In this document: piece by piece, positions 6,636 through 25,100 of the stretch
Layout of the letters: each line of letters begins with the position of its first letter
Numbering within the stretch: position 1 is the stretch's first letter
From: Bacteroidaceae bacterium
GTDB taxonomy: Bacteria; Bacteroidota; Bacteroidia; Bacteroidales; Bacteroidaceae
DNA: 40,806 bases
Assembly (NCBI GenBank): GCA_902362375.1
Contig: CABIVS010000019.1
Location: forward strand, 1 to 40,806
Direction of reading: 5' to 3'
Notes under the pieces: model-generated
What the model saw: only the letters and a program-made list of their open reading frames with translations
Told to the model about the DNA's origin: nothing
Databases searched by the model: none
Position numbers and translations under genes: made by a program

Positions 6636-7013
6636 ATGAAAAATTTCAAAGTAATTACATACATCATATTAATGATAGCATTTAGCTTTTCCTTTTCTTC
6701 TTGTGAAAAGCATGATGATATCCATTATCATTTTGATTGTGATATCATATCCATTATGGTTCGTGCTAATTCTCCGGAAGATGGTACTACTTATGATGGG
6801 CTCATATCAGAGAATGGAAATATAACTTTCGAACTTCCGGCAAAAGTGAAATTGAGCGAATTATATGTAACAGCCAATTTGCCTGTAGCAGCATTTGCTT
6901 ATCCTTCATTGACTGGTGCTAAAGATTTATCTACTCCATTTAAACTAACTATTGTAGCAGGTGATGGAACGCAAAAGGAGTATACTTTGATTGCTAAACA
7001 CCCAAATAACTAA
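6636..7013 (+). CDS. Small surface lipoprotein with one Ig-like (DUF5018-like) domain
   Basis: A 125-residue lipoprotein with Cys23 at the lipobox (SFSSC). The mature part is a single predicted all-beta domain with the pattern ISENGNITFELPAKVKLSELYVTANLP and ending in LTIVAGDGTQKEYTLIA. This resembles the Ig-like repeats (DUF5018 type) found at the N terminus of Bacteroides surface glycan-binding proteins. It lies 21 bp after susD and 13 bp before the next lipoprotein start. The position and fold suggest a glycan-binding accessory or a spacer domain. In the right locus a comparable Ig-like unit is part of the larger single protein at 32766-34463. The function is inferred and the family name is tentative. 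Confidence 0.75.
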   Translation: MKNFKVITYIILMIAFSFSFSSCEKHDDIHYHFDCDIISIMVRANSPEDGTTYDGLISENGNITFELPAKVKLSELYVTANLPVAAFAYPSLTGAKDLSTPFKLTIVAGDGTQKEYTLIAKHPNN

Positions 7014-7026
7014 AAAAGTAGATGTT

Positions 7027-9629: not shown

Positions 9630-10619
9630 ATGATAATGAAAAATATATCAAAATATTGGCTTCTTTTCATGATTGCCGCCATGTCTGCGACAAGTTGTTC
9701 AGATGATGATAATGAAAAGGTGGTAATGCCGGATCCTGATCCGACAACATTAGGTTGGGTTAAACAGACAACAGAGTTTGGCACATTACCTGAATACATA
9801 AGTGTATACAAATCTCCGTCAGAGCTGGAAGGCATGAAAGCCATAGCTTTTATTGCTGTTGCGGATATGTCAAAAGCAAATTTTGCAACTATCGGAGACC
9901 AGATATATTCTAAGACTCCCAATCAAATCTGGCAAGCAGAACAACAAAAATATCCGATAATTATGAATGGTGGATATTTTGTAATGGGAGCCGGTAAGTC
10001 TGTCAGTCTGCTATGCCGTGGAGGAGAGGTCTTAGCTGTGAACTCGCAGGAGGAAATACGTTCTCAAAAGAGTTATTATCCTACACGAGGTATCTTTCAG
10101 CTGTCAAAGAATGGCTATTTCTCCACAGATTGGGCTTATACAACAACTGATGGTGTGACATATACCTATGAACAACCTTCTCCCAATAAGTCCGGTTATG
10201 AGCCTCAACCTGCACCTTCGGCTTATTTTCCGACGAGAGGCGTGAAATTAAATGCAGAAACGGCGATTGGAGGTGGACCGATCCTGTTGAAAGACGGAAG
10301 TGTGAGAAATACTTTTATTGAAGAACTTTTTGATGAAGAAAGTGGAGTTGCTCCCGAAAGTTATCATCCAAGAACCGCTATCGGAGTAACAGCCAATAAT
10401 AAGGTGATATTTTTTGTTTGTGAAGGCCGCAGTGTAACGGAAGGTGTAAAAGGTATGAATATGGCTATGATGGCTAATGTCCTGAAGAGCTTAGGTTGTG
10501 TAGATGCTATGAATCTTGATGGTGGTGGTTCAACTTGTATGTTGGTCAACGGTCAACCGGTGATAAAGCCAAGTGCTGGTGCCCAACGTGCTATAACTAC
10601 GGCAGTAGCTTTAAAATAA
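9630..10619 (+). CDS. Phosphodiester glycosidase (NAGPA/DUF2233) lipoprotein
   Basis: Homologue of the DUF2233 domain of human NAGPA, the enzyme that removes GlcNAc from GlcNAc-alpha-1-phosphodiesters to uncover mannose 6-phosphate. Conserved blocks are present: MNGGYF (about residue 110), IGGGP (211-215), HPRTAIG (244-250) and MNLDGGGST (292-300), counted from the second Met at 9636. That Met gives a standard lipoprotein signal with Cys21 (SATSC); ATG 9630 adds only two residues. Length (327-329) fits a single catalytic domain. It sits between two GHL10 genes and upstream of GH89, in line with alpha-GlcNAc phosphodiester chemistry on the cell surface or in the periplasm. The structurally characterised bacterial relative I recall is BACOVA_00430 of B. 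ovatus. The natural substrate is not known from sequence. Confidence 0.9.
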   Translation: MIMKNISKYWLLFMIAAMSATSCSDDDNEKVVMPDPDPTTLGWVKQTTEFGTLPEYISVYKSPSELEGMKAIAFIAVADMSKANFATIGDQIYSKTPNQIWQAEQQKYPIIMNGGYFVMGAGKSVSLLCRGGEVLAVNSQEEIRSQKSYYPTRGIFQLSKNGYFSTDWAYTTTDGVTYTYEQPSPNKSGYEPQPAPSAYFPTRGVKLNAETAIGGGPILLKDGSVRNTFIEELFDEESGVAPESYHPRTAIGVTANNKVIFFVCEGRSVTEGVKGMNMAMMANVLKSLGCVDAMNLDGGGSTCMLVNGQPVIKPSAGAQRAITTAVALK

Positions 10620-10671
10620 CGGTCGAAAGATCTTTAGGATAACAAGTTTATTTTATTTAGCTTTCTTATTA

Positions 10672-10721
10672 TTCTCGATTTCAGGCTGTATTTTTTCTAA
10701 ATACTAGCTTGAAGTCGAGAA
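10672..10721 (+). promoter_or_regulatory. Long RNA hairpin in the gap before GHL10 copy 2
   Basis: In the 118-bp gap between the NAGPA gene and the next GHL10, bases 10672-10687 pair with 10706-10721 over 16 positions (14 Watson-Crick, 2 G-U). The stem continues with 10688-10693 against 10699-10704, leaving one bulged T and a five-base loop. No T-run follows it, so it does not look like a simple terminator. It ends 16 bp before the ATG at 10738, so it could stabilise or attenuate the mRNA or mask initiation. The role is inferred; the pairing is seen directly. Confidence 0.6.
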
Positions 10722-10737
10722 ATAAAAACAATAAAGT

Positions 10738-12036
10738 ATGAAATACATTCCAAGCATTTTATTCTTCTTTTTTCTTCTATCACTTAGTAGTTGTTCTACA
10801 AAGACTGTAGAATCAGAGCTTCCCGAGCCAAATCCTCCCACTCCTGTCATTCCGGAAGAACCAACTCCTGAAAAAGAAAAAATGCTCTGGTTTGATGCAG
10901 AAGCAAATTTTGAACGTTTCTCCCCAAAAGAGAATATCACATATTATCTTGATCTCGCCAGATCAACAGGTTTTAATAAAATTGTAGTCGATGTGCGTCC
11001 TGTACAAGGCGATGCCCTGTTTAAAAGTTCCTATTTAACCCCATTGACCGATCTTGCCGATACACATATCGAAAGAGATTGGGATTATCTTCAATTTTTT
11101 ATTGATGAGGCTCATAAACGTGAACTTAAAGTTACGGTCTCTGCTACTATATTTACGGCAGGCCTACCTTCTTCTAAAAATGGTATGGCGTACCGTGATG
11201 ATACATGGGATGGAAAAACTTGTTTGGAATATACCAAAGATCAGGGTTTGATAGATATTAAGGACGATAAAACAAAAGTCTCCGCCTTTTTAAACCCAGT
11301 TTTACCGGAAGTACAAGACTTTTGTCTGAATTTTATAAAAGAGTTAGTTACAAATTACAATTTTGATGGTTTTGCCTTAGACTATTGCCGTTATCCGGGA
11401 GATGAAAGTGATTTTTCGGAGGCAACAAAAACGGCTTTCGAACAATACATCGGAAAGCAATTAGATCGGTTCCCGGATGATATTTTCATTTGGAATACAG
11501 ATGGCACTAAACGGACAGGGACTTATTACAAGAAATGGTGGGAGTTCCGCTCTATGGTCATACGTAATTTTGTAGAACGGGTGCGCACAGAAATTAAAAA
11601 CATTAAACCGGATATTCAATTAGAATATTGGGCTGCCTCATGGATTCATGCTATTTATGGGCAAGGACAAAATTGGGCATCCACCGAATACGATTTTTCC
11701 AAAGAATACAGTTGGGCTTCACCTGAATATAAAAATACAGGTTTTGCCGGATTGTTAGACACCTTTCTATGTGGAACTTATTTAACCAAAATATTTGGAT
11801 TGAACGATCCCGAATCCATAGAATATGGTATAGCGCGTGCACAACGCATTGTTCATGGAGCATGTAAAGTCTATGGCACTTTGTATGCTTTAAATCATAA
11901 GGACAATATAGCAGATGCTGTTTATGTCTGTCTTTCCCAATCCGAAGGATTAATGGTGTTTGACATTGTGCAAGTAATAGAATTCAATCAGTGGGCAGCC
12001 ATTAAGGAAGGAATTCAACGAGCAGAGAGTCTTTAA
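10738..12036 (+). CDS. GHL10-type (DUF187) glycoside hydrolase-like lipoprotein, copy 2
   Basis: A 432-residue paralogue of 8355-9599, with the same core (MLWFDAEANFERF, FNKIVVDVRPVQGDALF, FDGFALDYCRYPGDESDFS, LEYWAASWIHAIYGQGQNW). It is a lipoprotein (Cys19 in LSSCS) followed by a proline- and glutamate-rich linker (about residues 25-48) that would hold the barrel away from the membrane, a difference from copy 1. This suggests a surface or outer-membrane location. The two copies flank the phosphodiester glycosidase, consistent with a local duplication and division of labour. The family is known for glycosidic cleavage of amino-sugar polymers (DigH); the substrate here is unknown. A strong hairpin lies directly upstream, so its expression may be tuned separately. 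Confidence 0.86.
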   Translation: MKYIPSILFFFFLLSLSSCSTKTVESELPEPNPPTPVIPEEPTPEKEKMLWFDAEANFERFSPKENITYYLDLARSTGFNKIVVDVRPVQGDALFKSSYLTPLTDLADTHIERDWDYLQFFIDEAHKRELKVTVSATIFTAGLPSSKNGMAYRDDTWDGKTCLEYTKDQGLIDIKDDKTKVSAFLNPVLPEVQDFCLNFIKELVTNYNFDGFALDYCRYPGDESDFSEATKTAFEQYIGKQLDRFPDDIFIWNTDGTKRTGTYYKKWWEFRSMVIRNFVERVRTEIKNIKPDIQLEYWAASWIHAIYGQGQNWASTEYDFSKEYSWASPEYKNTGFAGLLDTFLCGTYLTKIFGLNDPESIEYGIARAQRIVHGACKVYGTLYALNHKDNIADAVYVCLSQSEGLMVFDIVQVIEFNQWAAIKEGIQRAESL

Positions 12037-12069
12037 ATAGCGAATATTCAATAAAATATAATATATAAA

Positions 12070-14043
12070 ATGAAACGAGTACTTATATTATTACACATTA
12101 TTTTATGCACATGCATAGTAATTCAAGCCAAAAACTACACTGTAAGTTCACCGGATGGAAAAATCAAGGTGACGGTAACAGCCGGAAAACTATTAAGTTG
12201 GAGTATTGATTACAATGGTGAACGTATACTAAATCCCAGTCTGATGCAGATGGATATTGAAGGGCAGACTGAACAACCGGGAGTAAATCCGAAAGTAATA
12301 AAAGCTAAAACACTCAAAGTAAATTCGGAGCAAACAGCTGTCATTCCACTTAAACAAAGAATTATCAAAGATCAATATAACCAGTTAACTCTGACTTGTA
12401 AAGGTAACTACGCAATAGTCTTCAGAGTATATAACAATGGAGCCGCTTATCGTTTTGAGACTTCATTAAAGCAACCTAAAGTTATTATTAATACTGAAAC
12501 CATCGAACAGAACTGGACTGAAGGGTGTAAGCTATATTGGCCAAGAGAAAAGAATCAAGAATATCTCACACACTGCGAAGCCATTTTTGATGAATTAAAC
12601 ATCTCCTCGCTCACTAAGGATATGAAAGGCTATCTACCCATTTATCTCTCTACCCCTAAAGGAACGAAAGTTGTTATTATGGAATCCGATCTTTTCGATT
12701 ATCCCAATCTATTTTTGACAGGTGATCGTAATAACACGCTGTCCGGTGAATTTCCTCCTGTAGTTTTAAAAAGTGCCTTAAAGGAAGGTGCCGACCGTGA
12801 CGAAGTATTATTGGAGAAAGCCTCTTACATTGCTGAAACTGAAGGAACAAGAACTTTCCCTTGGCGTGTGTTAATGATTAACGAAGACGACAAAGCGGTA
12901 ATTGAAAATAACTTAGTGTATCAATTAGCCTCTCCATCTGTTACTCAAGACACAGACTGGATAAAACCCGGAAAGATTTCTTGGGATTGGTGGAGTACAC
13001 TGAACGTATACGGGGTAGATTTTAAGGCAGGTGTGAATACTGATACCTATAAATATTTCATTGATTTCGCTTCAAAATACGGAATTGAATATATTTTATT
13101 AGATGAAGGATGGTCAGCCGGAACCTGGAATATTAAGGAGCCAATACCCGGATTGGATATACCGGAACTGGTACGATATGGAAAGGAAAGAAATGTTGGT
13201 CTTGTATTATGGACCTTATGGAACCCACTTGATAAAGAATTGGACGAAATTCTGGATGTTTATGAAAAATGGGGAATCAAAGGTATAAAAGTAGATTTTA
13301 TGCAACGTTCGGATCAATATATGGTTAATTTCTACGAACGGGTAGGAAAAGCCGCAATGGACCGTAAATTACTCGTTGATTTCCATGGATCTTTCAAACC
13401 TTCCGGTTTGCAGAAGAAATATCCCAATGTGATGACTTTTGAAGGTGTACTGGGATTAGAGCACGATAAGGATTCAAGAGATATTAATCCGGTACATGAC
13501 TTGATTCTTCCATTTACAAGAATGGTAGCCGGTCCGATGGATTATACTCCCGGTGCAGTAAACAATGCAACAGCAGAAGACTTTTACATCAATTTCGTAC
13601 ATCCGATCAGTTTAGGTACACGCGCCCATCAGGCAGCTTTATATGTAGTGTATGAAAGCCCGTTACAAATGTTAGCAGATTCTCCCTCAAATTATTATAA
13701 AGCTCCAGAATTTGCCTCTTTTATCTCCCGTATACCTACCATTTGGGAAGATACTAAAGCTATAACAGCTAAAATCGGAGAACAATTAGTTATTGCCCGC
13801 AAGAATGGTAAGAATTGGTATTTGGCAGGTTTAACAGACTGGAATGCCCGTAACATTGAAGTGAAACTGGATTTTCTTGAAGCATCCAAATATAAAATGG
13901 AAATTTTCAAAGACGGTGTGAATGCAGATGTTTACGCCTCGGATTTTAAAACAGAAGAGGTAATGGTTTCAAAAGATGAACTAATTAACATCATCATGGC
14001 TAAAGGTGGCGGTTGGGCAGCAATTCTTACTCCGGTTGAATAA
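12070..14043 (+). CDS. GH97 glycoside hydrolase, retaining (alpha-galactosidase-like) type
   Basis: Secreted (signal peptide to about residue 20, VIQA-K) 657-residue GH97 enzyme: an N-terminal beta-sandwich (about 22-290), a central TIM barrel (about 300-560) and a C-terminal beta domain. The catalytic pattern matches the retaining branch typified by BtGal97A: GIKVDFM carries Asp409 as probable nucleophile and GLEHDKD carries Glu464 as probable acid/base. Their spacing of 55 equals that of Asp415/Glu470 in BtGal97A. It lacks the HHET and NHEP glutamates of the inverting SusB branch. The expected reaction is release of an alpha-linked hexose, probably alpha-galactose, from a chain end. It starts 33 bp after GHL10 copy 2 and ends 12 bp before the SGNH gene. 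Substrate assignment is by motif only. Confidence 0.92.
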   Translation: MKRVLILLHIILCTCIVIQAKNYTVSSPDGKIKVTVTAGKLLSWSIDYNGERILNPSLMQMDIEGQTEQPGVNPKVIKAKTLKVNSEQTAVIPLKQRIIKDQYNQLTLTCKGNYAIVFRVYNNGAAYRFETSLKQPKVIINTETIEQNWTEGCKLYWPREKNQEYLTHCEAIFDELNISSLTKDMKGYLPIYLSTPKGTKVVIMESDLFDYPNLFLTGDRNNTLSGEFPPVVLKSALKEGADRDEVLLEKASYIAETEGTRTFPWRVLMINEDDKAVIENNLVYQLASPSVTQDTDWIKPGKISWDWWSTLNVYGVDFKAGVNTDTYKYFIDFASKYGIEYILLDEGWSAGTWNIKEPIPGLDIPELVRYGKERNVGLVLWTLWNPLDKELDEILDVYEKWGIKGIKVDFMQRSDQYMVNFYERVGKAAMDRKLLVDFHGSFKPSGLQKKYPNVMTFEGVLGLEHDKDSRDINPVHDLILPFTRMVAGPMDYTPGAVNNATAEDFYINFVHPISLGTRAHQAALYVVYESPLQMLADSPSNYYKAPEFASFISRIPTIWEDTKAITAKIGEQLVIARKNGKNWYLAGLTDWNARNIEVKLDFLEASKYKMEIFKDGVNADVYASDFKTEEVMVSKDELINIIMAKGGGWAAILTPVE

Positions 14044-14055
14044 AAAGGTTTAGTA

Positions 14056-15444
14056 ATGAAGAAAATACTATTTATATTATATACCTGTTGCATTTTATCG
14101 TTTCCTGTACGTGCGCAGCAAATTCCGTCATTTAAAGCAAATGACAGAATTGTTTTTCTTGGAAATAGTATAACGGAAGGAGGGCATTATCATTCTTATA
14201 TATGGCTGTATTACATGACGCACTTCCCCAATTTACCTCTTCGTATGTATAATGGAGGAATCGGTGGTGATTGTGTGAGCCACATGGTTTATCGTTTCGA
14301 TTCAGATATTAAAATCAAAAAGCCGACCTATCTGATCTGTTCTTTCGGGATGAATGATTCCGGATTCGACGGATATAATAAGCCCGGATATGATAAGTAT
14401 GCGAATCAGCAGGTAGAGTATGCTCACACAGAGTTTGAAAAACTGCAACGGCAGATTCTTGCTGACAAAAAAATAAAAAGCGTAGTACTTCTAGGCTCTC
14501 CTCCCTATGATGAGAATGTGAAATTGAAAGGAGTAGAAGCTCTACACGGAAAGAATGAGACGATCAAACGAATTATTGAAATGCAGGCAGAAGTTGCCCA
14601 AAAGAGAGGATGGGGATTTGTCAATTTCAATACTGTGATGTGCGGGTTGAATAAGCAGATTCAGCTATCTGATTCTACAGCTACTTTCTGTGGCGGTGAC
14701 CGGATTCATCCTGATAAAGACGGTCATATGGTAATGGCGTACTTATTCCTGAAAGCACAGGGACTTGCAGGACAGGAAATCGCCTCTTTCCAAATCAATG
14801 CCACTAACAGGAAAGCAATGGAAGAGCGAAATTGCCGAATATCTCATATAAAGAATGAGAATGACACAATATCTTTCAGATATTTATCCCGTTCATTGCC
14901 TTTCCCTATCGACACGATTCCTCGCTGGGGAACGAAAGGTACAGCCCGAGATGCTATCAGACAAATTCCCTTTATGCAGGAAATGAACCAGGAAATAATG
15001 AAAGTAACTGATTTGCATGGCATTTTCCGGGTAACTATTGATGGAATAGAAATTGGCTGTTGGAGTGGCGACGAATTGAGTAAAGGAGTTAATCTGGCAG
15101 AAATAACATGTACACCCCAATACCAACAGAGTCTGTCTATCATGCATCTGAATGAAGAAAGGTGTGCTATAGAAAAACGTTTACGTCAATATATGGCTAT
15201 GCAGTATGTCTTTTTTAAGCATAGAGGATTACTTTTTGCAGATAATAAAGCCGCTCTTGATGTTGCCAAAGCGGAACGGGAAAGTCATTACCTGGTGAAG
15301 TATTTATATACCAATTATACTCAAGCCATGTTTCCACAGATACGTGAAGCCTGGCAGGCTGAAATAGACCAGTTGATAACTCAAATATATAAAATAAACA
15401 AGCCTCTTACGCGTTTGATTAAAATAGAAAGGATTAAAGAATGA
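14056..15444 (+). CDS. Secreted SGNH/GDSL hydrolase (esterase)
   Basis: A 462-residue exported protein (signal peptide ending near PVRAQ). SGNH blocks are visible: FLGNSITEGG with Ser38, NGGIGGD (about 66-72), FGMND (97-101) and GGDRIHPD with the Asp215-x-x-His218 dyad. The catalytic domain covers about residues 25-245; the C-terminal half is mostly helical and unassigned. Such enzymes remove O-acyl groups (often acetyl) from carbohydrates, which would open the glycan to the neighbouring glycosidases. It overlaps the next gene by four bases (ATGA), indicating coupled translation with the phosphoesterase. The acyl group removed is unknown. Confidence 0.85.
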   Translation: MKKILFILYTCCILSFPVRAQQIPSFKANDRIVFLGNSITEGGHYHSYIWLYYMTHFPNLPLRMYNGGIGGDCVSHMVYRFDSDIKIKKPTYLICSFGMNDSGFDGYNKPGYDKYANQQVEYAHTEFEKLQRQILADKKIKSVVLLGSPPYDENVKLKGVEALHGKNETIKRIIEMQAEVAQKRGWGFVNFNTVMCGLNKQIQLSDSTATFCGGDRIHPDKDGHMVMAYLFLKAQGLAGQEIASFQINATNRKAMEERNCRISHIKNENDTISFRYLSRSLPFPIDTIPRWGTKGTARDAIRQIPFMQEMNQEIMKVTDLHGIFRVTIDGIEIGCWSGDELSKGVNLAEITCTPQYQQSLSIMHLNEERCAIEKRLRQYMAMQYVFFKHRGLLFADNKAALDVAKAERESHYLVKYLYTNYTQAMFPQIREAWQAEIDQLITQIYKINKPLTRLIKIERIKE

Positions 15445-16913
15445 AATTAAGACTATTATTACTTTTATGCCTGTTCCAATGGAGTTTTTCCTGTTTTAGT
15501 GTACAGGCTGAAACTACTCCCGTAGTCTATTACGGGAAAGTACTGTCCGGAGGTAAGGGAGTTGCTAACGTACCTGTGACAGATGGTACGCAGATTGTCC
15601 TTACAGATAATAAAGGACGATACTCCATGACAAGTACCTCTGATGCAGAATACATCTATATTACCCTTCCTGATGGTTATGACGTTCCGATGAAAGGTAA
15701 AGTCCCTGTATTCTTTCAAAAAGTACCTGCTCAACCTTCAAAGAAAGTACATTTTGATTTTGAGTTGACACAATCATCTACGAATAACCAAAAGCATGTT
15801 TTGGTTGTATGGGCTGACCCACAAGTGTATTTTGACGAAGAAATGCCACAAGTACGGGAGGCCTCAAAAGATGTGAAAGAGCTGTTGGCAACTAGCTATC
15901 AGGGAATCCCTGCGTATGGAATAGTGTGTGGAGATATTATTGGTGACATCAATAAAAAGCCCAGCTATTTTGCGCCCATGATAGATGCAATAGCCGAAAC
16001 GGAAATTCCCTTTTTCTATGTAATTGGAAATCATGACTTAGATTTAAATGTACGTTCCAATGAACATGCACGTACTACTTATAAATCTTATTATGGTCCC
16101 ACTTACTATTCATTCAATAGAGGAAATGTGCATTATGTTGTTCTCGATGATATTTTCTTTATTGCAAAAAGCTATTTGTATGTTGGTTATCTTACCGAAC
16201 AACAACTCCAGTGGTTAGAACAGGATTTGAAACAAGTTACTCCGGGATCCACAGTAGTAGTTGCTACACATATCCCTACCTATTCAAGAGAAGCACGCCG
16301 AAAGGAATGGGGAAAGGAGTCTACTATGAAAGTAATGAATAACCGCTCTCATTTGTATGAGTTGCTAAAACCTTACAATGCTCATATCATGTCAGGACAT
16401 GAACACTATAATGAAAATTATGTGTTGGCAGACAATCTTTACGAACACGTGCACGCCCCCTTGTCAACATTGTTTTGGCAAGCTCCCTGGGCTTGTGATG
16501 GAACTCCGGGCGGATATGCCGTCTACGAGTTTGACGGAGGTAAAGTTAACTGGTATTACAAATGTGTAGGAAAAGATAAGGACTATCAATTTGAACTTTA
16601 TCCGGTAGGTGCCAGTCGAAATAAAAAGGAAGCAGTGGTGGCAAATGTCTGGAATTACGACCCAACCTGGAAAGTGAAATGGTATGAAAACGGTATTGAC
16701 AGAGGAGAAATGACTCGTTTTTCCGGATACGACCCTGCTATTTATGAATACTGTGATAAAAACAGTTCTACATTTAAGCATAAGTATTTGGGAGCAGACA
16801 TTACTGAACACTTATTTTATGCGGTTCCTGAAATGAAGGATTCCGAAATACGTGTAGAAGTTACAGATCATTGCGGTAATGTATATACCCGTAAAATGCA
16901 GCAACCTAAATAA
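15441..16913 (+). CDS. Calcineurin-like phosphoesterase with N- and C-terminal beta domains, copy 1
   Basis: Exported 490-residue metallophosphoesterase (signal to about residue 23, VQA-E). A small N-terminal beta domain (about 27-110, MetallophosN-like) precedes the catalytic domain with WADPQ (Asp126, Gln128), CGDIIGD (Asp165), GNHD (196-199), ATHIP (His277) and GHEH (319-322). A C-terminal beta domain (about 340-490, MetallophosC-like) follows. The first metal motif is D-x-Q rather than the usual D-x-H. The family hydrolyses phosphomonoesters or diesters with a two-metal centre. Its place among glycosidases implies a phosphorylated glycan substrate. It overlaps the SGNH gene by four bases. 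The substrate is not known. Confidence 0.88.
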   Translation: MKLRLLLLLCLFQWSFSCFSVQAETTPVVYYGKVLSGGKGVANVPVTDGTQIVLTDNKGRYSMTSTSDAEYIYITLPDGYDVPMKGKVPVFFQKVPAQPSKKVHFDFELTQSSTNNQKHVLVVWADPQVYFDEEMPQVREASKDVKELLATSYQGIPAYGIVCGDIIGDINKKPSYFAPMIDAIAETEIPFFYVIGNHDLDLNVRSNEHARTTYKSYYGPTYYSFNRGNVHYVVLDDIFFIAKSYLYVGYLTEQQLQWLEQDLKQVTPGSTVVVATHIPTYSREARRKEWGKESTMKVMNNRSHLYELLKPYNAHIMSGHEHYNENYVLADNLYEHVHAPLSTLFWQAPWACDGTPGGYAVYEFDGGKVNWYYKCVGKDKDYQFELYPVGASRNKKEAVVANVWNYDPTWKVKWYENGIDRGEMTRFSGYDPAIYEYCDKNSSTFKHKYLGADITEHLFYAVPEMKDSEIRVEVTDHCGNVYTRKMQQPK

Positions 16914-16938
16914 GCAAAAACATAAAAAAGGAAAGAAA

Positions 16939-18942
16939 ATGAATCGACTAACTGCATTAAGAAAAGTGTTTTATATTGTGGGAATCACCAGCTTCCTTTC
17001 AGCTTGTAACCAAACTGATAATCTGGTACTAAAGTCCCCGGATGGTAAGATACAACTAACAGTCACAGAGAATGATAATACAATATCATACGCAGTAAAT
17101 AAAGAGAATGAAACCATGATACTCCCTTCTAAATTAGGGTTTATCCTGGAACATGGAGATAGCTTAAACCATTTTGTAATTAAAGGCACCGAACGTTCCT
17201 CCTTGGACGAAACTTGGGAACAACCTTGGGGAGAGAGCCGATATGTACGTAACCACTATAATGAATTGAAAGTACTACTTCAAGAGGTAGCAGGAAAACG
17301 TAAACTTAATGTAATATTCCGTCTCTTTAATGATGGTATCGGATATCGTTATGAGTTTCCGCAACAGGAATCCATGGATTCATTAGTTATTATGAGCGAA
17401 GCAACAGAGTTTAAAATGCCGCGTATACATAAAGCTTGGTGGATTCCCGCATCCGATCCATATTATGAATGTATAGCAACATTCTCTTCCATAAATGAAC
17501 TGGATACTGTACGCACTCCTCTAACAATGGAAACTGCAGAAGGAAAGTATCTTGCCATTCACGAAGCTAACCTGACAGATTATCCCAAAATGAATCTGAC
17601 AGTCAAGGATTCTGCCACACTCTGCGCTTCATTAGTTCCTTGGTCTAATGGGGTTGCAGCATACATCAAAGCTCCATTTGTTACCCCTTGGAGAACAGTT
17701 GTTATTGGTGATAAACCGGGTGATCTGGTTACATCTTATTTGATGTTGAATCTCAACGAACCCTCCAAAATCAAAAATACTTCCTGGATAAAGCCAGGGA
17801 AATACATCGGTATATGGTGGGAAATGCATTTGGGTAAAGGAACATGGTATTATGGTCCCAAACACAGTGCTACCACTGCTAATACAAAGAAATATATAGA
17901 CTTTGCATCGGAAAATGGTATCTCCGGTGTGTTAGTAGAAGGATGGAATGTCGGCTGGGAAGGAAACTGGATGAAACACGGGGATTCTTTAGACTTCACC
18001 AAACCTTATCCGGATTTTGATATTAAGGCAATCACTGATTATGCCCGTGAGAAAGGCGTAGAATTGATTGGACATCATGAAACAGCAGCTGCTACCCGCA
18101 ACTACGAGAACCAATTGGACAAAGCCTTCGCTTTCTATCAACAATATGGAGTGCATGTCGTGAAAACCGGATATGTGAATCGCCTAATGGATTTTAAAGA
18201 AGCTCACGACGGTCAGTATGGTGTACGTCACTATCGGAAAGTGATAGAAACTGCTGCCAAATATCAAATAGCTATTGACAACCACGAGCCTGTTATGCCT
18301 ACCGGTATTGAGCGCACATGGCCTAATCTTATGACCCAGGAAGGCGTGCGCGGGCAGGAACACAATGCATGGTCTCCCGATGGAGGAAATCCGCCGGAAC
18401 ATACAACTGTTATTCCTTTTACCAGAGGATTAGCCGGCCCCATGGACCTCACATTCGGAACTTTCAACTTTACTAACGAAGCATATCCGGGGACTCGTGT
18501 CAATACTACACTTTGCAAGCAATTAGCGCTATTTGTCGTGATCTACAGCCCCTTACAAATGGCCTCGGATTTACCAGAAAACTATAAAGGCATCAAAGCG
18601 TTCGATTTCATTAAAGATGTACCTACCGACTGGGATAAAACTTATGTGATAGATGCCCAAATTGGTGATTATTCCGTGTTTGCGCGGAAAGACCGTAACA
18701 CCAGCGATTGGTATGTAGGCTGCATCACAGACGAAAATGCAAGAGAGCTAGATGTTCCTTTGAGCTTTTTGGATGCGGACTCAAAGTATACTGCTCAAAT
18801 ATATGCTGACGGTGACGATGCGGAATGGAAAACGAATCCGACTTCTTTCAAGTATGAAGAGAAAATAGTAACAGCTTCTGACACGCTTCATGTCAAACTG
18901 GCAACAAGCGGTGGATGTGCTATTCGTTTTATCAAACAGTAA
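16939..18942 (+). CDS. GH97 glycoside hydrolase, inverting (SusB-like alpha-glucosidase) type
   Basis: ATG 16939 is preferred over the upstream 16879: it has a purine-rich AAGGAAAG just ahead and gives a lipoprotein signal with Cys23 (FLSAC). The product has 667 residues with the GH97 architecture of beta-sandwich, TIM barrel and C-terminal beta domain. The catalytic glutamates fit the inverting branch: HHET (Glu381), DNHEP (Glu450) and GVRGQE (Glu474). The spacings of 69 and 24 equal those of SusB Glu439, Glu508 and Glu532. The retaining nucleophile position reads VKTGYV, with no Asp. Expected reaction: release of alpha-linked glucose with inversion. It is mechanistically distinct from the other GH97 in the operon. 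It lies one base before the GH89 start. Confidence 0.93.
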   Translation: MNRLTALRKVFYIVGITSFLSACNQTDNLVLKSPDGKIQLTVTENDNTISYAVNKENETMILPSKLGFILEHGDSLNHFVIKGTERSSLDETWEQPWGESRYVRNHYNELKVLLQEVAGKRKLNVIFRLFNDGIGYRYEFPQQESMDSLVIMSEATEFKMPRIHKAWWIPASDPYYECIATFSSINELDTVRTPLTMETAEGKYLAIHEANLTDYPKMNLTVKDSATLCASLVPWSNGVAAYIKAPFVTPWRTVVIGDKPGDLVTSYLMLNLNEPSKIKNTSWIKPGKYIGIWWEMHLGKGTWYYGPKHSATTANTKKYIDFASENGISGVLVEGWNVGWEGNWMKHGDSLDFTKPYPDFDIKAITDYAREKGVELIGHHETAAATRNYENQLDKAFAFYQQYGVHVVKTGYVNRLMDFKEAHDGQYGVRHYRKVIETAAKYQIAIDNHEPVMPTGIERTWPNLMTQEGVRGQEHNAWSPDGGNPPEHTTVIPFTRGLAGPMDLTFGTFNFTNEAYPGTRVNTTLCKQLALFVVIYSPLQMASDLPENYKGIKAFDFIKDVPTDWDKTYVIDAQIGDYSVFARKDRNTSDWYVGCITDENARELDVPLSFLDADSKYTAQIYADGDDAEWKTNPTSFKYEEKIVTASDTLHVKLATSGGCAIRFIKQ

Positions 18943-18943
18943 T

Positions 18944-21133
18944 ATGATTATGAAGAAAATACTAAGTATACTCCTTTTTCTAGTTGTTGTCTGCCAAATA
19001 CATGCGGAAGATGCTCATATCACTACCATGCATAAAATGACACAACGGTTGTTTCCTCAACAGGCTTCATCTTTTGATTTCCGTCTGTTGAATAATACTT
19101 CAGCAGACACTTTTACCATCAAAAGTGAAGGGAATAAAATTATTATTTCCGGAAATAACGCTAACTCTATGGCAGTAGGTTTGAATCATTATTTGAAAAA
19201 CTACTGTCTGACCACTATTTCATGGTATAAGGATGATCCGATAGAATTACCTAAAACTCTCCCTTCCATATCAACAGAAGTCACTATTAAGGCAAATGTC
19301 CCGACCCGTTTCTTTCTAAACTATTGTACGTTCGGGTATTCAATGACTTGGTGGAAATGGAGTGATTGGGAACATTTTATCGACTGGATGGCTTTAAATG
19401 GAATCAATATGCCTCTTGCTATTACCGGTCAGGAAGCTATCTGGTATAAAGTCTGGAGTAAACTGGGATTGACAGATGAAGAAATACGGGGATACTTTAC
19501 AGGTCCTGCACATCTTCCATGGCATCGAATGTGTAACTTGGATGGCTGGCAAAGTCCTTTACCTAAAGAGTGGTTGTCAAGTCAGGCAGCGTTGCAGGAA
19601 CAGATTGTTGCCCGTGAACGTGAATTTAATATGCGACCTGTATTGCCGGCTTTTGCCGGGCATGTACCGGCAGCATTGAAACGGGTTTATCCCAATATAA
19701 AAACAACCAGAGTAAGCGAATGGGGAGGTTTTGCCGATCAATATCGTTGTACTTTCCTGAATCCCATGGATTCTTTGTATGCGATCATACAAAAAGAATA
19801 TCTTACCGAACAGACTCGTTTATATGGTACAAACCATATCTATGGCATCGATCCGTTCAATGAAATAGATCCTCCTTCATGGGATGCCGATTCTTTGGGA
19901 ATGATGGCTAAGCATATCTATGAATCTGTAGCTGCTGTAGATCCTGAAGCGGTATGGTTGCAGATGACATGGCTGTTTTATGCTGACATCAAGCATTGGA
20001 CCACTCCACGTATCAAATCCTATCTTCGTTCTGTGCCTCAAGACAGGTTGATTCTATTAGACTATTTCTGTGAATATACAGAAATCTGGAAACAGACAGA
20101 CAGTTATTTCGGTCAACCTTATCTTTGGTGTTATCTGGGTAATTTTGGTGGCAATTCCTTTCTGTCAGGTCCGGTAAATTTGGTGAGCGAACGATTGGCA
20201 GATGCTTTAAAGAATGGCGGCAGTAATCTTAAAGGAGTAGGTTCCACTCTCGAAGGCATAGACCTGAATCAGTTTATGTATGAATTTGTTCTTGACAAAG
20301 CATGGAATGGAGGTCAGACAGATAAAGAATGGTTCTTTAAACTGGCAGACAGACGAATTGGCAAGATATCTCCTGAAGCGAGAAAAGCATGGGAAATACT
20401 AGCAAATAAAGTGTACGTCCAACCAGCACAAGTGGGACAAGGCACACTCACCAATGCGCGCCCCTGTTTGAAAGGAAATGGACATTGGACTACCAAACCA
20501 ACGATTGAATATCAACCAAAAGATTTAGTTGAAGCATGGAGATTGCTATTATCTGTAAAAGACTGTCAACGGGATAGTTATGAGTTTGATCTGGTCAATA
20601 TTGGACGACAAGTTTTAGGGAATTATTTTAATGTAGTCCGTGATGAGTTCACCCTTGCATATGAAGCGGGAGATATACCGATGATGAAAAACCGGGGGAA
20701 TAAGATGAGAGAGATTCTTGCTGACCTTGATAAACTCGTTAGCTGTCATCCAACTTTCTCACTGCATAAATGGATCACTGATGCTCGTGATATGGGACAT
20801 GATACCGCTTCTAAAAACTATTATGAAATGAATGCCCGTTCTCTGATTACCATTTGGGGAGATAGCTATCACCTGACCGACTATGCTAATCGATCATGGG
20901 CAGGTCTAACCAATCAATATTATTCTGTTCGGTGGGATCGTTTTATAAATAAAGTAATCGAGGCTGCTGAAAAGAAGAAGAATTTTGATGAAGAAGAATT
21001 CTTTAATCAATCACGGATTTATGAAAACGAATGGGTAAATCCTAGTAACAGAATCAGCTACAACGAAGGCGGTGACGGAATAAAACTAGCCCGCCAAATC
21101 TATAAAAAATACGCAAAAGAAATCATTCGATAA
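18944..21133 (+). CDS. GH89 alpha-N-acetylglucosaminidase (NAGLU family)
   Basis: The start is at ATG 18944 or, more compactly, ATG 18950 (727 residues), right after the GH97 stop; both give the same signal peptide (ILSILLFLVVVCQIHA). The N-terminal NAGLU domain (about 25-110) is followed by the TIM barrel and the helical C-terminal domain. Counted from 18950, DPFNEIDPP contains Glu305 and GSTLEGID contains Glu435. Their spacing of 130 equals that of Glu316/Glu446 in human NAGLU, so both catalytic carboxylates are present. Other hallmarks: TFGYSMTWWKWSDWEHFIDWMALNG and LPAFAGHVPAAL. The enzyme removes terminal alpha-linked GlcNAc with retention. Its location is probably periplasmic. Together with NAGPA and the DUF5009 acyltransferase it points to an alpha-GlcN(Ac)-containing substrate. 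Confidence 0.95.
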   Translation: MIMKKILSILLFLVVVCQIHAEDAHITTMHKMTQRLFPQQASSFDFRLLNNTSADTFTIKSEGNKIIISGNNANSMAVGLNHYLKNYCLTTISWYKDDPIELPKTLPSISTEVTIKANVPTRFFLNYCTFGYSMTWWKWSDWEHFIDWMALNGINMPLAITGQEAIWYKVWSKLGLTDEEIRGYFTGPAHLPWHRMCNLDGWQSPLPKEWLSSQAALQEQIVAREREFNMRPVLPAFAGHVPAALKRVYPNIKTTRVSEWGGFADQYRCTFLNPMDSLYAIIQKEYLTEQTRLYGTNHIYGIDPFNEIDPPSWDADSLGMMAKHIYESVAAVDPEAVWLQMTWLFYADIKHWTTPRIKSYLRSVPQDRLILLDYFCEYTEIWKQTDSYFGQPYLWCYLGNFGGNSFLSGPVNLVSERLADALKNGGSNLKGVGSTLEGIDLNQFMYEFVLDKAWNGGQTDKEWFFKLADRRIGKISPEARKAWEILANKVYVQPAQVGQGTLTNARPCLKGNGHWTTKPTIEYQPKDLVEAWRLLLSVKDCQRDSYEFDLVNIGRQVLGNYFNVVRDEFTLAYEAGDIPMMKNRGNKMREILADLDKLVSCHPTFSLHKWITDARDMGHDTASKNYYEMNARSLITIWGDSYHLTDYANRSWAGLTNQYYSVRWDRFINKVIEAAEKKKNFDEEEFFNQSRIYENEWVNPSNRISYNEGGDGIKLARQIYKKYAKEIIR

Positions 21134-21154
21134 AATTATAAAGTATACCTCAAT

Positions 21155-22606
21155 ATGAGAACGAATAAACTACACTTGTTTTTATTTCTTTTAATGTGTT
21201 TCTGCCTGAACCTTTCAGTTCAGGCGGAAGCCTCTATCAACATTATCAAAGGTAAAGTCACCTGCGAAGGTAAAGGAATGGGGGGAGTAATGGTTACCGA
21301 CGGCCATATATGTGTGCAGACCGACGCTTCAGGGAAATATAGTATCCCCACTTTGGGAGACAGTCGTTTTGTATATATTTGTACTCCTTCAGGCTATCTG
21401 ACAGACCGGAAAGGAACTATCCCTTCTTTCTATCTACCTATTGATTATTCTAAAAAGCAAAACTATAATTTTAATCTGAAGAAGAATCCCAAAGATGATG
21501 TTTCCCATGTTTTTGTAGCTCAATCTGATATACAGGTTACTTCCAGAGACGAACTGGCTATTTATCAACATGTAGTCGACGATTGCAAACAACTTCTCTC
21601 TTCTTATGCAACAACAGAAGTTTTTGGAATTGATTGTGGAGACATTGTAGGCGATCATCAAGAATTATATCCCGATTATTTGAAAAGAGCCGATCAACTG
21701 GATATACCTATCTATCGTGTAGTTGGCAATCATGATATGAATTATGACGGTCGCACGCATGAAACTTCCTACAAGACTTTTGAAGATACTTTTGGTCCTT
21801 CTTACTATTCTTTTAATAAGGGAAATGCCCATTATATTGTAGTAGACAATAATTTCTTTATCGGACGTGATTATTTCTATATGGGTTATCTGGATGAGAA
21901 AACATTTGCATGGCTTGATAAGGATTTATCATACGTACCGAAAGGGGCACTCGTATTCTTCATTATGCATATCCCTTCCCGCCAAACAGAAAAACAAGAA
22001 GCTTTTTTGTATAACTATGATATGATTGGTAATCAGATGGTCAACGCAGGTGCACTGCATCAGATGTTGAAACCCTACAAAGCACATCTTATCACAGGAC
22101 ATACTCATTACAATCTTAATGTCGTATTCGATGAGAATCTGATGGAACATAATACGGCTGCAGTTTGTGGTACGTGGTGGAAAGCGGATATTTGTCTGGA
22201 TGGTACTCCACGTGGTTATGGCGTATATGAAGTAAATGATAACGATGTAAAATGGTATTACAAAAGTTCCGGATATCCCAAAGAACATCAATTTCGTTCT
22301 TATCCTGTAGGAGCTTCTAAGGAACATCCGTCAGATATTATTGCTAATGTATGGAACTGGGATAAACTGTGGAAAGTGGAATGGCTGGAAGACGGTCAGT
22401 TGATGGGAAACATGACACGATATACTGGTTTAGATCCATACGCATCAGTAGTATGTTCGGACCGGGAAAAGATGGTATATACATGGATTACCCCAAGACC
22501 TACCCAACATATGTTTCGGGCAACTCCTAAAAATAAAGATGCTCATATAACGGTTAAAGTAACCGACCGTTTTGGCAAAGAATATATTCAAACAATCAAT
22601 CCATAG
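21155..22606 (+). CDS. Calcineurin-like phosphoesterase with N- and C-terminal beta domains, copy 2
   Basis: Exported 483-residue paralogue of 15441-16913 (signal ending VQA-E). The N-terminal beta domain covers about 28-110. Catalytic motifs are QSDIQ (Asp125, Gln127), CGDIVGD (Asp163), GNHD (191-194), MHIPS (His272) and GHTH (315-318), followed by a C-terminal beta domain to the end. Again D-x-Q replaces D-x-H. It is much closer to the right-locus copy at 29871-31304 (shared ASINIIKGKVTC-like start, DCGDIVGD, THYNLNV, HNTAAVCGTWWKADI) than to copy 1, so this lineage is the one common to both loci. It starts 22 bp after GH89 and ends four bases before the acyltransferase gene. Confidence 0.88.
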   Translation: MRTNKLHLFLFLLMCFCLNLSVQAEASINIIKGKVTCEGKGMGGVMVTDGHICVQTDASGKYSIPTLGDSRFVYICTPSGYLTDRKGTIPSFYLPIDYSKKQNYNFNLKKNPKDDVSHVFVAQSDIQVTSRDELAIYQHVVDDCKQLLSSYATTEVFGIDCGDIVGDHQELYPDYLKRADQLDIPIYRVVGNHDMNYDGRTHETSYKTFEDTFGPSYYSFNKGNAHYIVVDNNFFIGRDYFYMGYLDEKTFAWLDKDLSYVPKGALVFFIMHIPSRQTEKQEAFLYNYDMIGNQMVNAGALHQMLKPYKAHLITGHTHYNLNVVFDENLMEHNTAAVCGTWWKADICLDGTPRGYGVYEVNDNDVKWYYKSSGYPKEHQFRSYPVGASKEHPSDIIANVWNWDKLWKVEWLEDGQLMGNMTRYTGLDPYASVVCSDREKMVYTWITPRPTQHMFRATPKNKDAHITVKVTDRFGKEYIQTINP

Positions 22607-22610
22607 ATAT

Positions 22611-24011
22611 ATGAATAAACGTGCTTATGCTTTAGATGCCCTACGAGGTTATGCCATCATCACGATGGTGCTTTCGGCAACTGTTGCATGGAATTCTCTA
22701 CCCGGATGGATGTATCACGCACAAACTCCTCCTCCGGACAGAGCTTTCGATGCCAGTTTATCGGGAATCACCTGGGTGGATCTTGTTTTTCCATTCTTCC
22801 TGTTTGCAATGGGTGCTGCTTTCCCTTTCTCGATCAAAAAAAGATTTGAGAAAGGGGATACTAAGTTACGATTAGTATATGAAGCTATCAAGCGAGGTGT
22901 GCAATTGACTTTCTTTGCTATTTTTATTCAACATTTTTATCCGTATGTTTTAAGTAATCCACAAGACGTGCGTGCCTGGTTATTATCCATTCTTTGTTTT
23001 ATTATACTATTTCCTATGTTCATTCGCATCCCTCTGAAAATGCCAGATTGGATGCGTACAGTTATCAAGGTAACGGCCTATGTAATAGCCATTGTCTTGT
23101 TACTGACAACTCAATATGCAAATGAAAGAACTTTTGATGTATCATTCAACAACATAATCATATTACTGCTGGCAAATATGGCTGTTTTTGGTTCGGTCAT
23201 ATATATTTTCACAATGCAAAATCTCCGGGCACGAATAGGTGTATTACTAATATTGATGGCTTTGTTATTAAGTGGACAGGTTGACAATTCCTGGACACAA
23301 GCTATATACACCTACACACCTCTACCTTGGGCTTTTCATTTTGAGTATTTACAATATCTCCTTATCGTGATTCCGGGAAGCATCGCCGGAGAGTATTTGA
23401 TGGGGTGGCTGAAGCAGCACAATGATTCGTCTGTTGAATCTACAAATAAATGGAAAGCTATCGTAATGATTCTTTTGACATTAGCTATAATTATTGTAAA
23501 TTTGGCAGGACTTTATACACATTGTACAGTCTTGAACCTGATAATAAATATTCCGTTGCTGATAAGTGGAGTCTTTTTATTGAGAAAGGGCACAGGATTT
23601 ATAAAGCTTTGGAGAGAACTTTTTACAGCCGGAGCTTTCTTAGTTGTTTTGGGATTATGCTTTGAACCTTTTCAGGGAGGTATAAAAAAAGATCCCGCCA
23701 CTTTGAGTTATTTATTTCTCACTTCAGGTCTGGCATTTATGGCTTTATTGCTTTTAAATGTGATATGTGATTATTTTCGTTGTGTAAAGAGTACCCGTTT
23801 TCTTGTAATGCCCGGACAAAATCCCATGATGGCCTATGTAGTAGGAGATCTGTTGATTATGCCCGTAATCAATTTATTAGGAATTGCATCATTGCTTGTT
23901 TATTTCAATGAGAATGCATGGATGGGATTTTTACGAGGGGTAGTATTAACGGCATTATCAGTATTGGTAACTATGTTCTTTACCCGAATAAAATGCTTTT
24001 GGAGAACTTAA
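22611..24011 (+). CDS. DUF5009 membrane acyltransferase (HGSNAT-like), left copy
   Basis: Start chosen at ATG 22611 because the product (466 residues, MNKRAYALDALRGYA) then aligns with the right copy; an upstream in-frame ATG at 22572 lies inside the previous gene. It is an inner membrane protein with roughly ten or more hydrophobic segments. LDALRGYAIITMV and ITWVDLVFPFFLFAMG closely resemble the D-x-x-RG and LTVADLVFPWFVFIMG segments of human heparan-alpha-glucosaminide N-acetyltransferase. His36 (MYHAQTPPP) falls where HGSNAT has its active-site histidine. HGSNAT carries acetyl groups from cytosolic acetyl-CoA across the membrane to terminal alpha-glucosamine, which NAGLU then removes. GH89 lies two genes upstream. 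Inference: it re-acetylates glucosamine ends, or acetylates another sugar, in the periplasm. Confidence 0.86.
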   Translation: MNKRAYALDALRGYAIITMVLSATVAWNSLPGWMYHAQTPPPDRAFDASLSGITWVDLVFPFFLFAMGAAFPFSIKKRFEKGDTKLRLVYEAIKRGVQLTFFAIFIQHFYPYVLSNPQDVRAWLLSILCFIILFPMFIRIPLKMPDWMRTVIKVTAYVIAIVLLLTTQYANERTFDVSFNNIIILLLANMAVFGSVIYIFTMQNLRARIGVLLILMALLLSGQVDNSWTQAIYTYTPLPWAFHFEYLQYLLIVIPGSIAGEYLMGWLKQHNDSSVESTNKWKAIVMILLTLAIIIVNLAGLYTHCTVLNLIINIPLLISGVFLLRKGTGFIKLWRELFTAGAFLVVLGLCFEPFQGGIKKDPATLSYLFLTSGLAFMALLLLNVICDYFRCVKSTRFLVMPGQNPMMAYVVGDLLIMPVINLLGIASLLVYFNENAWMGFLRGVVLTALSVLVTMFFTRIKCFWRT

Positions 24012-24029
24012 AACAATAATATTCAAAAT

Positions 24030-25100
24030 ATGAAAAGAAGAATTTGTGTTTTTATAATGCTTTTTTTGATGTGTCATATATATGCCCAACTAGTATATCA
24101 TGATGCATCAAAGTTCCCTCTATTAGGAAAAGCCACCGAAGCCACCGGAGCACGATATGAAAGACTTCCGGATTCATTGAAGAATATCTCCCGTGCTCCG
24201 TTATGGAATTTAAGTCGTAATTCTGCCGGAATGGCGATACGTTTTCGCAGTAATTCTACCACGATAGCTGCAAAATGGGAAGCTCTTATCAATTTTCATA
24301 TGAATCACATGACTGACACAGGTGCAAAAGGCTTAGACCTTTATTGTCTTCAGAAGAATGGGGAGTGGCGTTTTGTAAACAGTGGTCGTCCAAATGGAAA
24401 AACAAATCAAGCAACAATCATTGCTAACATGCAACCGGAAGAGAGAGAATATATGCTTTATCTTCCTCTCTATGACGGTTTGGTTTCCCTATCTATAGGG
24501 ATTGATTCGTTAGCTACTATCGATCAGCCTTTAATTGATTATCCAATTCGCCAGAAGCCGGTTGTATTTTATGGAACCAGTATTCTTCAAGGAGGTTGTG
24601 CTTCACGTCCCGGAATGGCACATACAAACATTATATCAAGAAGATTAAATCGTGAATGTATCAATCTGGGATTCAGTGGAAATGCATTGCTAGATTTAGA
24701 AGTTGCCAAAGTAATAGCCGAGGTAGATGCCAGTGTTTTTGTTTTGGACTTTGTGCCTAATGCTTCTGTAGAACAGATGAAAGAACGTATGGAGACATTC
24801 TATCACATCATTCGTAGTAAGCATCCGGATACGCCTATTATTTTCATAGAAGATCCTATATTCACCCATACATTTTATGATGAAAGAATTGCTAAGGAGG
24901 TACAAAGAAAGAATGATACGCTAAAGGAGATATTCAACCGACTAAAAAAGAAAAATGAGAAAAATATCATTTTAATCTCTTCAAAGAATATGCTGGGAGA
25001 AGATGGAGAAGCCACAATTGATGGTATTCATTTCACTGATTTAGGCATGATGAGATATGCTGATCTTGTCTGTCCAATCATAAAAAAAGCAATCAAATAA
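24030..25100 (+). CDS. SGNH hydrolase with N-terminal GxDLY-type beta domain
   Basis: Exported 356-residue esterase (signal ending HIYAQ). The N-terminal beta domain (about 22-165) contains GAKGLDLY, the hallmark of the GxDLY domain that precedes SGNH_hydro_3 enzymes. The C-terminal catalytic domain has FYGTSILQGG (Ser184), LGFSGNA (about 213-219), DFVPNAS (Asn244) and DGIHFTDLG with the Asp331-x-x-His334 dyad. It probably removes acyl groups from a carbohydrate. It is the last gene of the left operon, 18 bp after the acyltransferase, and its stop codon touches the palindrome array at 25099. It shares little with the other SGNH enzyme at 14056. Substrate unknown. Confidence 0.87.
   Translation: MKRRICVFIMLFLMCHIYAQLVYHDASKFPLLGKATEATGARYERLPDSLKNISRAPLWNLSRNSAGMAIRFRSNSTTIAAKWEALINFHMNHMTDTGAKGLDLYCLQKNGEWRFVNSGRPNGKTNQATIIANMQPEEREYMLYLPLYDGLVSLSIGIDSLATIDQPLIDYPIRQKPVVFYGTSILQGGCASRPGMAHTNIISRRLNRECINLGFSGNALLDLEVAKVIAEVDASVFVLDFVPNASVEQMKERMETFYHIIRSKHPDTPIIFIEDPIFTHTFYDERIAKEVQRKNDTLKEIFNRLKKKNEKNIILISSKNMLGEDGEATIDGIHFTDLGMMRYADLVCPIIKKAIK

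Follow-up and report, generated by a model that had tools for sequence, protein, structure and literature searches.

DUF5009 as a predicted HGSNAT-like acyltransferase of GHL10-type amino-sugar loci in Bacteroidota, with GH89 as an occasional partner

The 40,806-nucleotide contig CABIVS010000019.1 of a Bacteroidaceae bacterium (assembly GCA_902362375.1), hereafter the window, is filled by two convergent SusC/SusD polysaccharide utilization loci (PULs) of the same recurrent Bacteroides-type kind, composed of SusC/SusD, DUF5018, GHL10-DUF4985, a calcineurin-like phosphoesterase (MetallophosN/C), and DUF5009. The DUF5009 membrane protein encoded at 22611–24011 on the forward strand seems to be an acyltransferase resembling HGSNAT that serves an amino-sugar PUL of the GHL10 type, with the GH89 enzyme of the same operon as an optional partner; on balance, we regard this as probable, on the basis of the domains, fold, conserved residues, and gene neighbourhoods observed. 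The original prediction had placed homologues of NAGPA, NAGLU (GH89), and HGSNAT in one operon, and all three are indeed encoded there, at 9630–24011, with scores far beyond chance. However, the operon is wider than had been described, running from about 543 to 25100, and neither the second DUF5009 gene (25800–27212, reverse strand) nor the two convergent SusC/SusD loci had been mentioned.

The DUF5009 protein (466 amino acids) matches PF16401 with 252.8 bits, and three human HGSNAT sequences make up its solved relatives at E < 0.001. The structure model adopts an HGSNAT-type ten-helix fold, and the protein carries the motifs of the transmembrane acyltransferase (TmAT) superfamily, namely DxxR in transmembrane helix (TMH) 1, FxxxxG in TMH2, Arg in TMH3, Gly in TMH6, and Tyr in TMH9; the matching of G260 to the published TMH6 Gly is our own. 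The acyl-CoA-site residues D9, R12, F63, G68, R95, G260, and Y409 are found in 82/82 aligned DUF5009 proteins, a set that excludes three DUF5009-labelled open reading frames (ORFs) of at most 430 amino acids, as well as in 16/16 HGSNAT_cat (PF07786) proteins encoded in tandem with GH89 and in 5/5 more distant tandem proteins. Moreover, His36 is conserved in 82/82 DUF5009 proteins in the sequence alignment, the structure model being poor at the His loop, and, as had been predicted, it corresponds to the HGSNAT His, aligning with it in 11/11 HGSNAT_cat relatives, with an 11-residue DUF5009 insert directly after His-Ala. It is credible that DUF5009 is an HGSNAT-like transmembrane acyltransferase of the TmAT superfamily, with an activity predicted from these features. 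It differs from human HGSNAT (PF07786, 663 amino acids) in its length, in the insert after the catalytic His, in the lack of the first-helix Asn, and in working in an organism with no lysosome.

A scan of species genomes yielded 575 DUF5009 loci, of which the 80 best were analysed together with flanks of up to 10 kb, many of them clipped by contig ends (L003 and L035 share one assembly, and L029 and L055 another). The neighbours found most often in these 80 loci are GHL10 (64), SusD (47), SusC (45), DUF5018 (44), and the calcineurin-like phosphoesterase (36), followed by NAGPA (21), GDSL3 (18), GH20 (18), an FAD oxidoreductase (16), and N-acyl-D-glucosamine 2-epimerase (16), and more rarely by ROK (14), NagB (6), and GH97 (6); SGNH, SASA, and CE2-like esterases are also frequent. 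GH89 is present in three (L001, L034, and L041). DUF5009 is mainly a protein of GHL10 loci, and GH89 is an occasional companion.

The GH89 gene of the window (18944–21133, forward strand) starts at ATG 18944 or 18950, within an ORF open from 18890. The NAGLU barrel of its product scores 465 bits and, together with the N and C domains, exceeds the Pfam cut-off, and the best solved relative is human NAGLU 4xwh (E 1.1e-144, ORF residues 66–742). The catalytic Glu pair was correctly predicted to be 130 residues apart: it consists of Glu 307 and 437 (numbered from ATG 18944), and Glu occupies these positions in every GH89 aligned. The protein is 53% identical to the GH89 of L099, whose start matches the published Bt0438 primer, and, judged by sequence, it is a complete enzyme related to the alpha-N-acetylglucosaminidase Bt0438. 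The latter is described as cleaving N-acetylglucosamine (GlcNAc)-alpha-MU, and a heparosan disaccharide poorly (12.2% at 0.036 mM; PMC8225759). Together with the second GH97 gene (16939–18942, forward strand, encoding a lipoprotein), GH89 forms a GH97b-GH89 segment (16939–21133) between two forward-strand genes for calcineurin-like phosphoesterases with MetallophosN/C domains (15441–16913, with PF16370, PF16371, and PF00149; and 21155–22606, from the Pfam scan). This segment is present in B. ihuae L001 and absent from L007 and L018, two close relatives in which DUF5009 is 79% and 78% identical, the second GH97 is matched by a 31–32% paralogue only, and a genome-wide search gave 0 GH89 matches. 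Because both loci keep phosphoesterase-phosphoesterase-DUF5009 without GH97b-GH89, GH89 appears to be an optional, removable cassette beside DUF5009, which argues against a fixed pairing of the two.

This bears on the pathway that the original prediction had put forward, in which DUF5009 would acetylate terminal alpha-linked glucosamine (GlcN) on imported oligosaccharides and the adjacent GH89 would remove the product, mirroring lysosomal HGSNAT and NAGLU. The two genes share an operon with a single phosphoesterase gene between them, and both proteins can face the periplasm, since the GH89 N-terminus resembles a plain signal peptide (signal peptides and surface-export motifs were assessed by eye) and DUF5009 is a membrane protein. 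In the tree, moreover, the GH89 of the window groups as sister to GH89s from one type of HGSNAT_cat tandem. Linkage was measured in 49 genomes behind 50 of the 80 loci (L032 left out; some assemblies are incomplete), 24 of which contain GH89, while 25 gave no GH89 match. Among 51 GH89 genes, two lie within 5 kb of DUF5009 (0.15 expected), three within 10 kb (0.30), and eight within 25 kb (0.75), with no further pairs between 25 and 50 kb; the expectation assumes even gene placement over the genome and ignores the clustering of PUL genes. One close pair, in Marinilabiliaceae JC017 (L034, 2.9 kb), is independent. Nevertheless, five of the eight pairs are 13–16 kb apart, and in the cases examined, such as L099, the distant pairs come from neighbouring convergent operons. 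Across 99 genomes of the B. ihuae genus, GH89 lies within 25 kb for 3/20 true DUF5009 genes. Some linkage between GH89 and DUF5009 exists, mostly at 13–16 kb, so the predicted co-occurrence exceeds chance; however, with GH89 in just 3/80 DUF5009 loci, half of the genomes lacking a match, and L007 and L018 retaining DUF5009 without the cassette, the strict form of the pathway seems unlikely. The HGSNAT fold, the His, the acyl-CoA residues, and the complete GH89 all fit an acetylate-then-cleave scheme, but the survey speaks against DUF5009 and GH89 being a dedicated pair.

A bacterial HGSNAT-NAGLU tandem is real, however, for PF07786 HGSNAT_cat, the sister family of DUF5009, which has matches in 93/99 genomes of the B. 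ihuae genus. Considering the 150 best-scoring HGSNAT_cat matches, 36 of 103 GH89 genes (one of the two entries for a split gene in G045 excluded) lie within 5 kb of HGSNAT_cat, 29 of these within 2.5 kb, and the pairs occur in 31 of 64 GH89-bearing genomes, with about 0.4 genes expected by chance and no extra pairs between 5 and 25 kb among the matches listed. As a control, 0 of the 150 best-scoring GH97 matches fall within 5 kb of HGSNAT_cat, although the true figure is not zero, as GH97 adjoins HGSNAT_cat in L083 and L087, outside those matches. Sixteen tandem loci (L081–L096), picked for having a near pair, were fetched, and in 14 the two genes are direct neighbours, one intervening gene being present in L094 and L095. 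Their arrangements are HTCS-GH89-HGSNAT-GH92-GH28 (L084, L085, and L091–L093), GH92-GH89-HGSNAT-SusC-SusD-GH28 (L081, L086, and L096), GH92-GH97-HGSNAT-GH89 (L083 and L087), SusC-SusD-HGSNAT-808 aa-GH89 (L094 and L095), and, in a type C, phosphodiesterase-GH89-glycerate kinase-permease-HGSNAT-GH89 (L082, L088, L089, and L090), where the permease is GntP-type, the phosphodiesterase is Exo_endo_phos, and SusC/SusD are labelled in three of four. Across the phylum, 13 of 198 genomes carry GH89, and 6/16 GH89 loci have an HGSNAT-type neighbour, one of them in B. ihuae, which carries both a GH89 with DUF5009 and, elsewhere, a GH89 with HGSNAT_cat. GH89-HGSNAT_cat tandems (L081–L096 and L118–L122) are spread over Bacteroidota, often with GH92 and GH28, both of which recur beside the pair in L119–L121, GH28 also in L122. 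Bt3590 was considered as a tandem GH89 and discarded, as its published start primer matches a GH89 elsewhere in G048, outside the tandem. Like the window, the tandems of Bacteroides place GH89 near a transmembrane HGSNAT-type protein; unlike DUF5009, these proteins belong to PF07786, have about 360–380 amino acids, carry H-[AS]-x-W-[ND]-G and the Asn site, score 139–158 bits on NagX (three tested), and are encoded beside GH92/GH28 or glycerate kinase rather than GHL10. A literature search found no bacterial HGSNAT-NAGLU link beyond the NagX paper, subscription journals being mostly outside its coverage. Thus, the original interpretation was half right: its coupled logic has genomic support in HGSNAT_cat, and the pairing is not typical of DUF5009.

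For DUF5009 as an acyltransferase of GHL10 loci, the reading that we prefer, we infer the acyl donor, the acceptor, the order of the steps, and the substrate as follows. At the surface, SusCD, DUF5018, and the NAGPA lipoprotein would bind and nick the glycan, which periplasmic GH97, phosphoesterases, and esterases would then trim. An acyl-CoA, probably acetyl-CoA, would reach the DxxR site of DUF5009 from the cytosolic side, and its acyl group would be handed at periplasmic His36 to a free amino sugar released by the locus. N-acetyl-specific exo-enzymes, GH89 here and GH20 or none in other loci, could remove the re-acetylated sugar, and the freed sugar would be imported and directed to N-acylglucosamine 2-epimerase and GlcNAc catabolism. 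Several points weigh against this proposal. The 80 loci are the closest of the 575, so the sample leans towards window-like loci, and NagB, N-acyl-D-glucosamine 2-epimerase, and GH20 each occur in a minority of them. The structure model has a pLDDT of 74.4, falling below 50 at residues 25–56, which form the His loop. At the first-helix Asn site, 0/82 DUF5009 proteins have Asn (A 35, G 38, S 8, and D 1), and an Asn further along TMH1 has been described as important in HGSNAT. We take this alignment column to be that of the human HGSNAT Asn. HGSNAT_cat has Asn there in 16/16 GH89-tandem proteins, and of five distant tandem proteins, four have Glu and one has Asn; as four of the five have Glu, the Asn is not essential to that family either. 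The two window DUF5009 proteins score 36.6 and 40.9 bits on the NagX equivalog NF046061, far below its cut-off of 480, so identity with NagX was rejected. Finally, PMC12423673 states that no DUF5009 has been assayed to date.

DUF5009 could also be an acyltransferase of another kind, which O-acylates or acylates a non-glucosamine acceptor, e.g., a cell-surface glycan or lipid-linked sugar, its place in the PUL reflecting co-regulation. Most TmAT superfamily members are described as O-acyltransferases, and their acyl donors as varied (PMC12423673), the first-helix Asn site and the post-His insert set DUF5009 apart from HGSNAT_cat, and esterases often lie near DUF5009; nevertheless, the tree in the same paper intermingles DUF5009 with HGSNAT, amino-sugar genes recur near DUF5009, and we consider this alternative quite improbable. 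A further alternative, a transporter for N-acetylmuramic acid (MurNAc) or GlcN, is the role that has been claimed for a distant relative, the Tannerella protein TfMurT. It would agree with the distant NagX-TfMurT similarity noted by the GapMind authors, who weighed transport, and with the GHL10 of Cwp19 being a peptidoglycan lytic transglycosylase (PMC6016235). However, the fold and residues of DUF5009 are those of an acyltransferase, TfMurT is described as a sodium-symporter or MFS protein (PMC5790795), and the GapMind authors found transport inconsistent with their own fitness data, which makes this explanation very remote.

Among the closest known systems, NagX, a proposed periplasmic glucosamine N-acetyltransferase (PMC9007349), shares the superfamily and the logic, in which a periplasmic amino sugar is acetylated from cytosolic acetyl-CoA, but, unlike it, the window DUF5009s are no NagX equivalogs by score and sit in SusC/SusD-GHL10 loci. 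The gene set of the window is also that of B. thetaiotaomicron BT0438-BT0454, described as GH89, SusC/D, DUF5009 (BT0446), a 'family 10 glycosylhydrolase', a calcineurin-like protein, and SusC/D (PMC10434189). There, as in L099, it is the opposing convergent operon that carries GH89, whereas in the window and B. ihuae L001 the gene lies inside the DUF5009 operon.

The Pfam scan covered 25 of the 36 window ORFs of at least 100 amino acids. The left operon (forward strand) begins with N-acyl-D-glucosamine 2-epimerase (543–1805; PF07221; NCBIfam equivalog NF052547, 739.9 bits, cut-off 600), a SusC-like TonB-dependent transporter (1837–4959; PF13715 and PF07715), a SusD-like lipoprotein (4974–6614; PF07980 and PF14322), a small lipoprotein with weak DUF5018 similarity (6636–7013; 36 bits to the DUF5018 model), and a DUF5018-type lipoprotein that probably binds glycan at the surface (6991–8325; PF16410, 60.5 bits). 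The last two could be taken for a single broken DUF5018 gene, but, as both have a separate stop and, by eye, a separate signal peptide, we read them as two genes. A GHL10 plus DUF4985 glycoside hydrolase-like protein (8355–9599; PF02638 and PF16373), the NAGPA-domain lipoprotein (9630–10619), a GHL10 plus DUF4985 lipoprotein (10738–12036), a GH97 near the retaining alpha-galactosidase model (12070–14043; PF10566; NF053844, 705.5 bits, below the cut-off of 800), and a GDSL/SGNH esterase-like protein (14056–15444; PF13472) precede the phosphoesterase-GH97-GH89-phosphoesterase-DUF5009 run, and an SGNH hydrolase with a GxDLY domain (24030–25100; PF14606 and PF14607) closes the operon. The right operon (reverse strand) encodes, from its 5' end, N-acyl-D-glucosamine 2-epimerase (39439–40602; NF052547, 728.2 bits, same cut-off), SusC-like (36162–39386), SusD-like (34482–36143), and DUF5018 (32766–34463; PF16410, 543.8 bits) proteins, GHL10 plus DUF4985 (31327–32730), a calcineurin-like phosphoesterase (29871–31304), a SASA esterase-GHL10-DUF4985 fusion (27209–29863), and the second DUF5009, 66% identical to the first. 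Five right-locus proteins compared with B. xylanisolvens L002 are 93–96% identical, and the left locus from the first GH97 on is 77–90% identical in protein to B. ihuae L001; since the nearest relatives differ, the two loci may have separate histories. These identities suggest that the host is a Bacteroides or a near relative of that genus. Gene arrangements vary in other loci: SASA stands as a separate gene beside GHL10 in L008, and a NagB-type glucosamine-6-phosphate deaminase gene directly follows DUF5009 in L009, L019, L048, and L051.

The NAGPA protein matches PF09992 with 113 bits (E 2.3e-32, cut-off 25), contains NGGYF and DGGGS, and has NAGPA 6pki among its distant solved relatives. 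The SDDDNE directly after its lipoprotein Cys is presumably a surface export signal. Human NAGPA is a Golgi enzyme, and 'lysosome-type' is therefore a loose label for it. With NAGPA in 21/80 DUF5009 loci and PF09992 lacking the power to fix a substrate, its partnership on phosphodiester-linked GlcN is a conjecture. The two GH97 proteins differ at the retaining-nucleophile site, KVDFM in the first and KTGYV in the second, which suggests one alpha-galactosidase-like and one alpha-glucosidase-like enzyme.

As for the substrate of the window, a phosphodiester-bearing polymer of bacterial origin would suit NAGPA, the phosphoesterases, GH97, GH89, the esterases, and N-acylglucosamine 2-epimerase. 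N-glycans are a possible alternative, BT0451-BT0461 being described as an adjacent N-glycan PUL (PMC7531118); sialoglycans are possible in some loci, given that SASA domains occur and that L036 has a BNR sialidase, and peptidoglycan might be considered by analogy with the Cwp19 GHL10. Heparan sulfate was rejected, as the Pfam matches of the 25 scanned ORFs include no sulfatase, heparinase lyase, or unsaturated uronidase. For the tandems, plant inositolphosphoceramide or glycosylphosphatidylinositol headgroups with alpha-GlcN would be candidates. The repeat of C. difficile lipoteichoic acid (LTA), joined by phosphodiester bridges, is reported as -6)GlcNAc-alpha(1-3)[P6]GlcNAc-alpha(1-2)-glyceric acid (PMC6972965), and one of its residues is reported to be un-acetylated GlcN to an extent of about 15% (PMC10642750). 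The glycerate-type tandem gene set, with two GH89, a phosphodiesterase-type protein, glycerate kinase, permease, and HGSNAT, appears to match each of these features, which would point to such a substrate from gene content.

Taken together, it is possible, and we propose it tentatively, that Bacteroidota have a true HGSNAT-NAGLU counterpart, in which periplasmic alpha-GlcN would be re-acetylated by a transmembrane HGSNAT-type enzyme and then removed by GH89. The PF07786-GH89 tandems would be its dedicated form, with the glycerate kinase/permease/phosphodiesterase type directed to C. difficile-like LTA and the GH92/GH28 types to other alpha-GlcN glycans, and the window DUF5009 would be a branch for phosphodiester-bearing amino-sugar polymers, e.g., Gram-positive anionic wall polymers. 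If this is true, un-acetylated glycans would become digestible to gut Bacteroidota at the expense of cytosolic acetyl-CoA used across the membrane, and de-N-acetylation would no longer protect a glycan but would be an obstacle that can be removed.

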